Part shown: in pieces, positions 23,558 to 60,426 of the stretch | How the letters are laid out: the number at the start of each line of letters is the position of its first letter | How positions within the stretch are numbered: position 1 is the stretch's first letter | Source: Rhodococcus sp. WMMA185 | Lineage (GTDB): Bacteria > Actinomycetota > Actinomycetes > Mycobacteriales > Mycobacteriaceae | Reading direction: 5' to 3' | Assembly: GCF_001767395.1 (NCBI RefSeq) | Contig: NZ_CP017014.1 | Span: forward strand, 992,001-1,056,000 | DNA: 64,000 nt | Program-made: the position numbers and the translations under genes | Notes under the pieces: model-generated | Told to the model about the DNA's origin: nothing | Database searches by the model: none | Seen by the model: only the letters and a program-made list of their open reading frames with translations

Positions 23558-24178
23558 ATGACTTCGCCGCGTGTCCGGGTGCCCTATCAGGAGGCCACGC
23601 GATTGTTGCTGCGCCGGTCCGTACTCGATGCGATGCGGGACCTCCTCTTCGACAACGACTGGTCGAGCATCACGATGGCCGACGTCGCGGCGGGTGCCGG
23701 GGTGAGTCGGCAGACGCTCTACAACGAGTTCAAGTCGCGGCAGGGCCTCGCGGAGGCGTACGCCCTCCGGCTGGCCGACGAACTCGTCGATTTCGTGGGA
23801 GAGTCGCTGGTGGCGAACGTCGGGGACGGTCGCGCCGCCCTGACGGCAGGGTTCAAGGCGTTCTTCGCCGCAGGTCTTTCCGATCCTCTGGTGCAGTCGC
23901 TGCTGCGAGGTGAGGCGAAGCCCGACCTTCTTCGGCTGATCACGACCGAGAGCGCGCCGATCATCGAGCGGGCGTCCGAGAGACTCTCAGAGGTGTTCGT
24001 CAATGGCTGGGTGCGGGCGACCCCGTCGGATGCGGGGATACTCAGCCGCGCGATCGTGCGGCTGGCGATGAACTACATCTCGACGCCGCCGGAATCCGAG
24101 GTCAACGTCGCTGAGGATCTCGGCGCCCTTCTGGGGCCGTTCTTGGACGAAGCGGCGGATGGTATCGATCGCCGATGA
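23558..24178 (+). CDS. TetR-family regulator of the alkB cluster
   Basis: A 206-residue repressor-type protein. The helix-turn-helix is at about 35-60 (TMADVAAGAGVSRQTLYNEF); the rest is an all-helical ligand domain. By position it matches Rv3249c and AlkU-type regulators that follow alkB-rubredoxin genes and control them in response to alkanes or fatty acids. The ligand is not known. ATG 23558 follows the hexanucleotide repeat; its copy number could change the distance between promoter and start. Confidence 0.85.
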   Translation: MTSPRVRVPYQEATRLLLRRSVLDAMRDLLFDNDWSSITMADVAAGAGVSRQTLYNEFKSRQGLAEAYALRLADELVDFVGESLVANVGDGRAALTAGFKAFFAAGLSDPLVQSLLRGEAKPDLLRLITTESAPIIERASERLSEVFVNGWVRATPSDAGILSRAIVRLAMNYISTPPESEVNVAEDLGALLGPFLDEAADGIDRR

Positions 24179-38233: not shown

Positions 38234-38257
38234 GTAACCTACGCCTCCGTAAGTGGA
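38234..38257. promoter_or_regulatory. Half-conserved operator before the reductase gene
   Basis: GTAACCTACG-N4-CGTAAGTGGA. The left half equals the reverse complement of the right half of the palindrome at 40751-40774; the right half matches at six of ten positions. It lies 46 bases before ATG 38304. Confidence 0.5.
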
Positions 38258-38303
38258 TTGGCCTTGCGGTAGCGTAGGTCGTGACTAAACAGGTGGAGGT
38301 CGG

Positions 38304-39419
38304 ATGGGTCTGAAGAATTGGGTAGAGGCACCCGCAGCTGCGGTTGTGCCCGCCACGAGGTCCAAGCTCAATTGGTTGCGCGGTGCGGCTGCTCGGCTCA
38401 CGACGCCACTCCTTCCCGACGACTACCTGCACCTGGCCAACCCGTTGTGGTCGGCACGTGAACTACGTGGCCAGATCGTCGAGGTTCGCGCCGAGACGGC
38501 GGATTCGGCCACGATCGTCATCAAGCCCGGCTGGGGATTCAACTTCGACTACGTGCCGGGGCAGTACATCGGCATCGGATTGCACGTCGATGGACGCTGG
38601 CATTGGCGTTCGTACTCCCTTACTTCGCCCCCGAACTGGGATGACAAGCTCATCTCCATCGCAGTCAAGGCGATGCCTGAAGGGCTCCTGTCGAGTCACC
38701 TCGTCAACGGAGTGCCTTCCGGCACCATCGTTCGGCTCGCGACCCCGACCGGGAACTTCGCACTGCCCGACCCACCGCCGGAGCGAATCCTGTTCCTCAC
38801 CGCGGGAAGTGGTATCACACCTGTGATGTCGATGCTGCGCACGATGAACCGGCGCGGACAGTTGCCTGACGTTTTCCATGTGCATTCGGCGCCTACAGAT
38901 GCCGACGTGATGTTTGCCGACGAACTCAACCGCCTTCACGACGAGCACGCAGACTTCCGCTGCAAGATTCAGCTCACCCGCAGCGAGGGAAAGTTCGCTT
39001 TGTCCTCACTCGACGAAGTGTGCCCGGACTGGCGTGAACGGCAGACGTGGGCCTGTGGCCCGCTGCCGATGCTCGACGAAATCGAGACGCTGTGGCGCGA
39101 CGAGAATATCGAGGACAATCTACATCTCGAGCGGTTCGCCGTCTCCCGTGCCGATACTTCGGGTCAAGGTGGGACGGTGACGTTTGCCAAGACCGAGAAG
39201 ACGCTCTCCATCGACGGTGCGACCACACTCCTCGAGGCCGGCGAGAAGGCCGGGGTGCTGATGCCGTTCGGCTGCCGGATGGGCATCTGCCAGACGTGTG
39301 TCGTGCCCATCCTTTCGGGTCACGCCGTCGACCTGAGGTCCGGCAAGCAGCACGCCGAGGGTGACCGAGTCCAGACCTGTATCTCGGCTGCGGCAGGGGA
39401 CTGCACGCTCGACGCATGA
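38304..39419 (+). CDS. Ferredoxin-type oxidoreductase for acyl desaturases
   Basis: A 371-residue NAD(P)H:flavin oxidoreductase with a C-terminal 2Fe-2S domain. FAD site: [11 protein letters not shown] (RxYS). NAD site: [18 protein letters not shown], and [13 protein letters not shown]. The ferredoxin cysteines are in [12 protein letters not shown] and the later VQTC. In M. tuberculosis the homologous Rv3230c passes electrons to the stearoyl-CoA desaturase DesA3 encoded next, and the same order is seen here. ATG 38304 follows GGTGGAGGTCGG. Confidence 0.92.
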
Positions 39420-39480
39420 GTGAGGGGCCTGTTCACCTCACTCCGCTATTCTCGTCATTCTCATCAGACGGAGGAGAACG

Positions 39481-40731
39481 GTGGCAATCACCGACATCAA
39501 AGAGTTTGCGCACCTCACCGCCGCGGATATCGAGTCGCTCGGGCGTGAACTCGATGGTATCCGGCTCGAGGTGGAGGACTCACGAGGAATTCGTGACGCC
39601 CGATACATCCGACGCACGATCAGGGCTCAGAGGCTCCTCGAGCTCGGTGGCAGGCTCGCGTTGTTCGGAAGCAAGTACCGGCCTGCGTGGCTGATCGGTA
39701 CTGCGATGCTCTCGGTCTCGAAGATCGTCGAGAACATGGAGCTCGGTCACAATGTGATGCACGGCCAGTGGGACTGGATGAACGACCCGGAGATTCACTC
39801 GGTGTCGTGGGAGTGGGATCAGACAGGACCGTCCGAGCACTGGAAGCGGGCCCACAACTACTCGCACCATACGTTCACGAATATCGTCGGAATGGACGAG
39901 GACGTCGGATTCGGCATCCTCAGAATGACCCGTGACGAGCCGTGGCGACCGATCAACTTGTTGCAACCGATTGCGAACGTCATCTTGGCCGCCACCTTCG
40001 AGTGGGGTATCGCTCTTCACGACCTCGCTTCCGCCAGGGAACTCGAAGGCGCCGACCGTCGCCAGCTCAATTCTCAGGCCAACAAGGACTTCGCCCGCAA
40101 GGTCTTTCGGCAGGTCGGCAAGGACTTCGTCTTGTTCCCGGCGCTGACCGGCCCGGCGTGGAAGTCGACTTTGTTGGCCAATGCGACGGCGAACCTCACC
40201 CGAAACCTATGGGCGTACGTGGTGATTTTCTGTGGCCACTTCCCGGATGGTGCCGAGAAGTTCACGGTCGAGGAATACGAGAACGAGACCCGCCACGAGT
40301 GGTATTTGCGGCAGATGCTCGGGAGCGCCAACTTCAACTCCGGCAGGGTCATGGGTTTCATGTCCGGAAATCTGAGCTACCAGATCGAGCACCACCTTTT
40401 CCCTGATCTGCCGAGCAATCGGTATCCGCAGATCGCGGTGAAGGTTCGGGCGTTGTGCGAGAAATACGACCTTCCGTACACAACCGGTTCTTTGGCCAAA
40501 CAGTACTTGCTGGCGCTGCGCACGATCCACAAACTCGCTCTGCCGGATAGGTTTCTGCGGGCAACGGCCGATGACGCCCCCGAGACGTCGTCGGAGCGCA
40601 AGTTCCGAGACGCGGGTGCGGCCGTGGTCGAGACATTGCGTACGGATCCGGTTACCGGGGAGCGTCGGGGATTGCTGTGGGCGCTGCGCGCCCGCGCAGA
40701 AGCAAAGATTGCCAGTCGTCGCCGGCGATGA
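39481..40731 (+). CDS. desA3: Acyl-CoA desaturase (DesA3 type), copy 1
   Basis: A 416-residue membrane-bound diiron desaturase. Three His boxes: GHNVMHGQWDWMNDP, HNYSHHTFTN and QIEHHLFPDLPSNRYP. Membrane helices flank residues about 60-100 and 160-260. It introduces a delta-9 double bond in stearoyl-CoA using electrons from the adjacent reductase. GTG 39481 follows GGAGGAGAAC. The reductase stop is 61 bases upstream. A second, closely similar desaturase follows in tandem. Confidence 0.92.
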   Translation: MAITDIKEFAHLTAADIESLGRELDGIRLEVEDSRGIRDARYIRRTIRAQRLLELGGRLALFGSKYRPAWLIGTAMLSVSKIVENMELGHNVMHGQWDWMNDPEIHSVSWEWDQTGPSEHWKRAHNYSHHTFTNIVGMDEDVGFGILRMTRDEPWRPINLLQPIANVILAATFEWGIALHDLASARELEGADRRQLNSQANKDFARKVFRQVGKDFVLFPALTGPAWKSTLLANATANLTRNLWAYVVIFCGHFPDGAEKFTVEEYENETRHEWYLRQMLGSANFNSGRVMGFMSGNLSYQIEHHLFPDLPSNRYPQIAVKVRALCEKYDLPYTTGSLAKQYLLALRTIHKLALPDRFLRATADDAPETSSERKFRDAGAAVVETLRTDPVTGERRGLLWALRARAEAKIASRRRR

Positions 40732-40750
40732 CCCTCACGTAAGCCTTCAG

Positions 40751-40774
40751 GTAGCCTACGGTACCGTAGGTTAC
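40751..40774. promoter_or_regulatory. 24-bp palindromic operator before the second desaturase
   Basis: A 24-bp palindrome with 11 of 12 matched pairs (halves GTAGCCTACGGT and ACCGTAGGTTAC), 66 bases before ATG 40840. Extra half-sites (CGTAAGCC and GGTAGGT) flank it. The shape is typical of TetR-family operators. A related site lies at 38234-38257. Confidence 0.65.
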
Positions 40775-40839
40775 GACCCGGTAGGTGAATCCAGTGCCGG
40801 CCTGGTGTGAACTTGTCGACTCAGCGAGGAAGAGGTTCC

Positions 40840-42078
40840 ATGGCGATTGCCGATGTCAAGGAATACGCGCATCTCACCGATGCCGATGTCGAAGCACTCG
40901 GACGTGAGCTGGATGCGATCCGCCGCGAAATCGAGGAGTCGCGCGGGGAGCGCGACGCCCGCTACATACGCAACACGATCCGACTTCAGCGTGGACTCGA
41001 GATCAGCGGGCGGGCAGTCTTGTTTGCCAGCCGCAAGCGCCCGGCATGGTTGCTCGGAACAGGCTTGCTCGGTCTCTCGAAGATCATCGAGAACATGGAA
41101 CTCGGCCACAATGTGATGCACGGCCAGTGGGACTGGATGAACGATCCGGAAATCCACTCGACGACCTGGGAGTGGGACAACACCGACCCGTCGGCGCACT
41201 GGAAGCAGACGCACAACTACCTGCATCACAAGTACACGAACGTCCTTGGCATGGACGACGATGTCGGATACGGCCTGATTCGGGTGACCCGCGATCAGCG
41301 CTGGAGCCCGTTCAACTACGGCAATCTGGTCTACAACGCACTGCTGGCGCTGATGTTCCAGTATGGCGTGGCCATCCAGCATCTCGAACTGGGCAAGGTC
41401 GCGATGGGGCGAGATGACCGGGACGAAACCAAGCGCAAGTTGCGTGAGGTCGGACAGAAGATCGGCAAGCAGGTCGCGAAGGACTACGTTGTGTTCCCGG
41501 CGCTGGCCGGTAAGTCGTGGAAGTCCACGTTGACCGCGAACATGACCGCCAACGTCATCCGCAACGTGTGGACCAACGCAGTCATCTTCTGTGGCCACTT
41601 CCCGGACGGTGCCGAGAAGTTCACGAAGTCGGATGTCGACAACGAGACGCGCGCCGAGTGGTACCTGCGTCAGATGCTCGGCAGTGCCAACATCACGGGC
41701 GGCCCGGTCATGCACTTCATGACGGGCAACTTGAGCCACCAGATCGAGCACCACATCTACCCGGATCTGCCGTCGAATCGGTACGCCGAGATCGCCGTGA
41801 AGGTGCGGGCGCTGTGCGACAAGTACGACCTGCCCTACACGACCGGGCCGTTCCTCTTGCAGTACGCGAAGTCATGGCGCACGATCGCCAAGCTGTCGTT
41901 GCCGAACAAGTACCTGAAGGCAACGGTGGACGACGCTCCTGAGACGGCATCCGAGCGTAAGTTCGGTGGAAACACCACGGCGACAATCGATCCCGTCACC
42001 GGGAACCGTCAGGGACTGAAAGCCGCGATCAAGCGGACCCGCAAGAGTCGAGGGCTGCGCGCGCTGTTCTCGCGCTAG
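40840..42078 (+). CDS. Acyl-CoA desaturase (DesA3 type), copy 2
   Basis: A 412-residue paralogue of the preceding desaturase, alike along its full length. The His boxes are GHNVMHGQWDWMNDP, HNYLHHKYTN and QIEHHIYPDLPSNRY. It probably shares the reductase but has its own palindromic operator, so it may be expressed under different conditions or have a different chain-length preference. ATG 40840 follows GAGGAAGAGG. The gene is convergent with rsgA, 29 bases away. Confidence 0.92.
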   Translation: MAIADVKEYAHLTDADVEALGRELDAIRREIEESRGERDARYIRNTIRLQRGLEISGRAVLFASRKRPAWLLGTGLLGLSKIIENMELGHNVMHGQWDWMNDPEIHSTTWEWDNTDPSAHWKQTHNYLHHKYTNVLGMDDDVGYGLIRVTRDQRWSPFNYGNLVYNALLALMFQYGVAIQHLELGKVAMGRDDRDETKRKLREVGQKIGKQVAKDYVVFPALAGKSWKSTLTANMTANVIRNVWTNAVIFCGHFPDGAEKFTKSDVDNETRAEWYLRQMLGSANITGGPVMHFMTGNLSHQIEHHIYPDLPSNRYAEIAVKVRALCDKYDLPYTTGPFLLQYAKSWRTIAKLSLPNKYLKATVDDAPETASERKFGGNTTATIDPVTGNRQGLKAAIKRTRKSRGLRALFSR

Positions 42079-45305: not shown

Positions 45306-45440
45306 CGAGGAACCCTGGTCCTTCAGGGCGGGGAGGAATCGCGTCACGTGGTGGGTGGTGCACGAGTAGCTGAACGGCCACTGCGCACGTTGCAGTTTGG
45401 TTCTCGGTTGGTGTCGGTGGTCGCTGTTACGGTCCGGGGT

Positions 45441-46689
45441 GTGAAGCAGGTGGTGCGCGTGAAGTTACTGGCTGATGCCCAGCAACTCGACGCTGTGCTG
45501 CGCACTCTGGCCGTCTGCAACGACACCGCCACCCTGGTGGCTCGCATCGCGCACGAGAAGCGGGTGTTCCGCAAACGTGATCTGCGGGCGGTCACCTACG
45601 CCACCGCCCGCGGGCATGGTGGGTTGGGTGCGCAGGTGGCGCAGTCGGTGATCCGGAAGGTCGCCGACTCGTACACCACCCTGCGGGCCAACCTCCGCAA
45701 CGGCAGATACGGGCCGAAAGGCTCCCGCCGCCGGGCGCGGGTGGAGAACACGCCGATCCGGTTCCGCCCGGACGCGGCGCAACCGTTCGACGACCGGTGC
45801 CTGTCCTGGCAGCACGACCAGGACGGTAGGGGTGGCACGGTGTCGATCTGGACGGTTGACGGCCGGATGAAGAATCTGCGGTTCGTTGGGCACCCCGACC
45901 AGGTGGCGATGCTCCGTGACTACCGGAAGGGGGAAACCGATCTCGTCGTACAGCGCGACCGGAAAGGGAACCCGACCGCGTACCTGATCGCCGTCTGCGA
46001 CTTGCCCGACCCCCCGGTCGCCTCCGGGGAGCATCTGAACACCCCGGACGGGTGGATCGGGGTGGACCTGGGAATCGTGAACATCGCGGTCGCCTCGGAC
46101 CGGAATCTTGGCGATCACCTCATCGACACCTACGGGGACGGTGCCCCGGACGGTCCGACCGGTCGGGGCAGCACCAAGGATCGTCGTACCCGTAACCGAG
46201 AACTCCGGTACACACTGCAGAAGAAGAACACCAAGTCGGCGAAGAGACTGTTGCGGCGGCGGGCTCGGAAGGAAGCCCGGTTCGCCGCCGACGTCAACCA
46301 TCAGATATCCAAGAAGGTTGTGGCCGAGGCTGAACGCACCGGACGCGGCATCGCCCTGGAGAACCTCACGGGCATCCGCGAGCGGGTACGGTTTCGTGGG
46401 GCCCCAACGGGCCACGCACTCGAGTTGGGCGTTCGCGCAACTCGGGGCCTTCATTTCCTACAAGGCCGCCCGGGTGGGGGTGCCGGTGTTGTCGGTGGAT
46501 CCGGCGAACACCAGCCGCCGTTGTATCCGGTGTGGTCATATCGAGAAGAAGAACCGGCCCCACCAGGACCGGTTCTGTTGTCTTGACTGCGGTTTCGTTG
46601 AACACGCGGATATTGTCGGCTCGCACAACATTGCGTATCGGGCCGCCGAGGACTACCGGGCCCAGTCAACGGTCCCTGGCGTGGCGTGA
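45441..46689 (+). pseudogene. tnpB: TnpB RNA-guided nuclease, frameshifted
   Basis: TnpB (transposon-encoded RuvC-like nuclease, ancestor of Cas12). Frame one, from GTG 45441, carries RuvC-I Asp in GVDLGIVNIAVASD and RuvC-II Glu in IALENLTGIRERVRF. Near 46398-46401 a run of four G shifts the frame; removing one G restores RFRGPQRATHSSWAFAQLGA. The other frame then encodes the zinc ribbon (CIRCG, CCLDCG) and RuvC-III Asp (HADIVGSHNIA), ending at 46689. A protein made without frameshifting would lack the zinc ribbon and third catalytic residue. Could be real decay, a sequencing error or programmed slippage. Confidence 0.85.

Positions 46690-59724: not shown

Positions 59725-60426
<702 letters not shown>

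Follow-up and report, generated by a model that had tools for sequence, protein, structure and literature searches.

The stretch of DNA analysed here, referred to as the window, is 64,000 nucleotides long and corresponds to positions 992001-1056000 of the complete 4.44-Mb genome of Rhodococcus sp. WMMA185. A gene for an Rv3230c-type oxidoreductase is followed there by two DesA3-type desaturase genes, and paired palindromic sites lie ahead of the reductase and of the second desaturase (Table 1).

Table 1. Genes and sites of the window, in window coordinates (PWM: score obtained with a position matrix derived from the sites of relatives)
Feature	Position	Strand	Description
Operator O1a	38234..38257	.	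before reductase; GTAACCTACGCCTCCGTAAGTGGA = GTAACCTACG-CCTC-CGTAAGTGGA; PWM 24.8
Operator O1b	38259..38282	.	degenerate second copy, 25 bp downstream of O1a; TGGCCTTGCGGTAGCGTAGGTCGT; core 38262-38279, CCTTGCGGTAGCGTAGGT; PWM 6.6
Rv3230c-type oxidoreductase	38304..39419	+	presumed electron donor for the desaturases; FAD, NAD and 2Fe-2S domains
Inverted repeat	39420..39445		AGTGAGG...CCTCACT, directly 3' of the reductase
Desaturase copy 1	39481..40731	+	DesA3-type fatty acid desaturase, membrane; without operator of its own
Operator O2a	40751..40774	.	before desaturase copy 2; GTAGCCTACGGTACCGTAGGTTAC; 11/12 pairs; PWM 36.8
Operator O2b	40766..40789	.	overlapping O2a, shifted by 15 bp; GTAGGTTACGACCCGGTAGGTGAA; PWM 14.6
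Desaturase copy 2	40840..42078	+	DesA3-type fatty acid desaturase, membrane; operators O2a/O2b ahead
Open reading frame	45348..46586		translation resembling a TnpB/OrfB-type transposase protein
FasR	59725..60414	-	orthologue of FasR proper, scoring 378.7 bits with NCBIfam (cut-off 330); the desaturases lie about 18 kb away

The initial annotation had described a 24-bp palindrome with 11/12 pairing ahead of desaturase copy 2 and a related site with a 6/10 right half ahead of the reductase, and the sequence bears out both descriptions. The first palindrome, O2a, is the sole match in the window to GTAACCTACG-N4-CGTAGGTTAC within three mismatches (0 in 100 shuffles) and, in a scan of the whole 4.44-Mb genome, the sole match to GTARCCTACG-N4-CGTAGGTTAC within three mismatches. 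Exact matches to GTRRCCTACG-N4-CGTA are found in the genome only at O1a and O2a. The left halves of the two sites, said to be identical, differ by one base when compared directly; their identity holds when the left half of O1a is set against the right half of O2a read as its reverse complement. The core of O1a, ACCTACGCCTCCGTAAGT, matches the motif ACYTACG-N4-CGTARGT exactly, and both sites contain a TAC-N6-GTA palindrome (TACGCCTCCGTA and TACGGTACCGTA). The extra half-sites that had been noticed turn out to be the degenerate second operators O1b and O2b; besides O1a and O2a, the position matrix picks out O2b as one further site of the window, O1b scoring lower. In relatives of the genus, the reductase is preceded by one or two sites, with an intact site at the position of O1b (L011, L014), and usually two ahead of copy 2, where the 15-bp arrangement of O2a and O2b is conserved.

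Desaturase copy 1 starts 61 bp after the reductase. The gap (39420-39480) holds no site within five core mismatches, in agreement with the earlier statement that no operator precedes copy 1, and relatives of the genus likewise have no site between the two genes, so that copy 1 most simply uses the reductase promoter. In the simplest reading, the reductase and copy 1 form one operon under the first operator, while copy 2 stands under the second. Both paralogues are therefore probably members of the regulon, and the earlier suggestion that they are differently controlled loses much of its ground, copy 1 being apparently part of the reductase operon. The inverted repeat directly behind the reductase could trim the expression of copy 1 relative to that of the reductase.

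Conservation of the motif and its target genes

The operator is real and highly conserved. Among 28 related genomes from 26 genera, exact ACYTACG-N4-CGTARGT occurs at 45 sites vs 0 for the reversed control. At the loci opened in these genomes, all 45 sites adjoin a reductase, DesA3, DesA, PAQR/TrhA or PlsC-like gene, the gene start having been inferred from the divergent partner at a few of them. In mycobacteria, 80 loci from named records were covered (M. tuberculosis itself is not among them): the desaturase site is perfect at 75 and carries one mismatch at five, whereas the coding-sequence control at mycobacterial loci never falls below three mismatches. Clustered sites are present upstream of orthologues of Rv3229c and Rv3230c. 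Across the class, a stricter pattern is found in 121 of 297 genomes vs two with the control pattern. The proposal of a common operator, TetR-like in shape, before the reductase and desaturase 2 is supported. The motif is neither scattered at random over the genome nor missing from the promoters of related species, either of which the initial annotation had taken as arguing against its proposal. The two palindromes of the window are predicted control sites of an ancient switch common to many actinobacteria.

Five kinds of target gene are found, namely those for the Rv3230c-type reductase, the DesA3-type desaturase, the ferritin-type acyl-ACP desaturase DesA, PAQR/TrhA (hemolysin III) proteins and PlsC-like acyltransferases. 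In the Rhodococcus genome itself, the motif lies ahead of the PAQR/TrhA gene (521227), the reductase, desaturase 2 and DesA (3152427), and none of the core sites opened there lies at fas. The PAQR protein scores above two NCBIfam cut-offs, that of hemolysin III and that of TrhA; for the DesA protein there is a match to Pfam FA_desaturase_2. The PAQR/hemolysin III target gene and a prenyl diphosphate synthase gene point away from each other. Two further matches in this genome were dismissed, one at 2759129 as a tRNA gene on reading the sequence and one at 3354365 as lying inside a gene. With PAQR and DesA, the regulon is wider than the two promoters first described, and it is class-wide; the switch appears to set membrane unsaturation.

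Some sites lie before genes of other kinds. The motif or a near-motif precedes FadD (long-chain acyl-CoA ligase) and AccD (acyl-CoA carboxylase) genes in Corynebacterium-like (g3) genomes and in genomes of f2 (L102, L100, L290). In distant families, sites are seen before other genes, e.g. nitronate monooxygenase-like and Fpg-like ones (L216, L218, L233, L234).

An Rv1019-type TetR as candidate regulator

The candidate regulator, P0001, is a TetR protein and FasR paralogue encoded outside the window (genome 451867-452529), adjoining glmU in the order prsA-glmU-tetR. The order glmU-tetR-mfd in Mycobacterium (L252) is the position of Rv1019, and the mycobacterial orthologues are 73-78% identical to the Rhodococcus protein. 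Several other families of actinobacteria have the motif ahead of an SCD-type acyl-CoA desaturase gene with a TetR gene directly behind it, often near glmU. When these desaturase-linked TetRs are compared with all 69 TetRs of the Rhodococcus genome, their best match is the protein at 451951, P0001, mostly at 59-66% identity (with 76% over a 54-residue fragment), the next-best TetR attaining about 30-46%. FasR and the Rv1019-type proteins fall into separate clades of the tree. By sequence, the closest solved structure to P0001 is Mtb FasR, of whose residues Leu98 is kept and Phe123 is replaced by Leu.

The TetR and the motif are also lost together. Among the 297 genomes, the motif occurs in 116 of the 190 that carry the TetR vs five of the 107 that do not (Fisher p 2e-24, phylogeny ignored), and is thus missing from 102 of these 107. 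Both are absent from G028, G007, G037, G087, G126, G138 and G004; genomes of g8 and three of Corynebacterium are among those lacking both. G028 has kept its reductase and desaturase along with a true FasR (362.3 bits, cut-off 330); the Rv1019-type TetR and the motif are gone, a tRNA-like match being the only one genome-wide. Three of the five genomes with the motif and without the TetR are less than 90% complete. Conversely, 74 genomes have the TetR without the strict motif. At three Streptomyces-like loci opened, an exact core precedes the desaturase at two and a site with one mismatch at the third, so that the strict outer bases of the pattern account for part of these 74 genomes. In G017 (L399), a TetR orthologue (58% identity) is present with no motif at the reductase/desaturase locus, where the operator may have changed.

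Operon linkage in several families, together with co-loss within a family, is hard to explain unless the Rv1019-type TetR is the regulator. On these two grounds, its predicted role as regulator of the motif is well supported.

Other TetR genes lie close to the motif or to the candidate. The TetR gene behind a motif-bearing desaturase in genus g4 (L092, L093, L103) is not of the Rv1019 type. This TetR and the one beside plsC (L088) were rejected as regulators and taken as local genes because their Rhodococcus homologues are weak and scattered. At L402 (4592-5290), a second, different TetR gene stands directly behind the Rv1019-type TetR, at the place occupied by mfd in mycobacteria.

Alternative regulators and the proposed switch

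An unlikely alternative is FasR as the regulator of these sites, either by itself or together with the Rv1019-type TetR. As a paralogue, FasR has the same C-terminal domain family. McGuire et al. reported in 2012 a TAC-N6-GTA palindrome in clusters of two or three before Rv3229c, Rv3230c and fas, thus grouping the fas sites with those of Rv3229c/Rv3230c, tied it to palmitate-induced genes in Mtb and gave no regulator (PMC3388012). The crystallised Mtb fas operator, TACCCGTACGTAGAACTCGCCAGTA, also contains TAC-N6-GTA, but this 25-mer is at least six mismatches away from the core motif, and FasR is therefore kept as a rival of low weight. G028 retains a true FasR where the motif is lost, and in other families the desaturases that carry the motif have a TetR of the Rv1019 type beside them, not FasR. 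Upstream of FasR in the window there is a single half-site only (60463), which is at chance level. FasR differs further from the proposed repressor as an activator of fas in Mtb. It is less likely still that another conserved regulator binds the motif while the Rv1019-type TetR merely travels with the regulon. In Rhodococcus, the gene of this TetR is unlinked to the targets and has no good site in its own promoter. A scan for autoregulatory sites in the promoters of all 69 Rhodococcus TetRs found none, and no motif lies near the Rv1019-type TetR or mfd at the mycobacterial loci searched. Against such a bystander role stand the linkage in several families and the co-loss described above.

MadR (Rv0472c type), a mycobacterial desaturase repressor, is a very improbable binder of these sites. 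Like the proposed regulator, it is a TetR repressor of desaturases that is relieved by saturated acyl-CoAs, and the motif also occurs ahead of DesA genes; MadR represses desA1 and desA2, whereas desA3 is unresponsive to madR deletion (PMC8872791). Its reported site, TCTGTG-N7-GT, differs from the motif and did not turn up in those DesA promoters with the motif that were examined. On operator sequence, FasR, MadR and MabR were all rejected as regulators, FasR also on co-loss. The TetR encoded at 23558, named as a candidate in the initial annotation, deserves almost no credence: it shares the window with the sites, but it belongs to the alkB cluster, in the position of AlkX/Rv3249c (PMC9430723), is only a remote relative of the motif-linked TetR, and shows no connection with the motif.

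The sites are probably operators of an actinobacterial membrane-desaturation regulon that the Rv1019-type TetR represses and a lipid signal releases. Computation establishes the sites, their conservation and targets, and their linkage and co-loss with the TetR; physical binding, repression as its direction and an acyl-CoA ligand are inferred. The Rv1019-type TetR would bind ACYTACG-N4-CGTARGT palindromes, often two per promoter, and would repress desaturase 2, DesA and the membrane-homeostasis protein PAQR/TrhA along with the operon of the reductase and desaturase 1. The lipid signal, most likely a long-chain (saturated) acyl-CoA, would bind the TetR, and the liganded repressor would leave the DNA, whereupon desaturation would rise. 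Since the candidate is a FasR paralogue, an acyl-CoA-type TetR is plausible; Mtb FasR binds and senses long-chain acyl-CoA (PMC7382501). At L273, a TTGACA box and, 18 bp further on, TACCGT can be read directly ahead of the operator, which would thus cover the transcription start, an arrangement that fits repression; a sigma-70 consensus scan of the window promoters found nothing. In Pseudomonas, the TetR repressor DesT governs a desaturase operon and reads acyl-CoA saturation. It resembles the proposed switch as a TetR placed over a desaturase operon, and differs in lineage and in operator.

The motif described here and that of the 2012 report are the same spaced palindrome upstream of orthologous genes. 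Whereas the earlier report dealt with mycobacteria and included fas, the present analysis adds a stricter core, the PAQR, DesA, PlsC and FadD targets, a class-wide spread and a candidate regulator. Both the regulator assignment and the wider regulon appear to be new. In the literature searched, which covered few subscription papers, nothing was found that connects Rv1019 with desaturases or PAQR proteins; as cited in PMC9579286, Rv1019 is a negative regulator of mfd-mazG, the published target according to that citation. The present results suggest that Rv1019, presented only as the mfd-mazG regulator in the papers found, is mainly a lipid regulator. It is somewhat more probable than otherwise that the Rv1019-type TetR is a general membrane-fluidity switch of Actinomycetes, acting on three desaturase types that differ chemically, their electron donor, the PAQR/TrhA sensor and acyltransferases, with a secondary role at mfd-mazG. 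A motif that had stood without a regulator since the 2012 report now has a named, testable candidate, and membrane desaturation and PAQR/TrhA are joined in one regulon whose reach extends over Rhodococcus-like, Mycobacterium and Streptomyces-like lineages.
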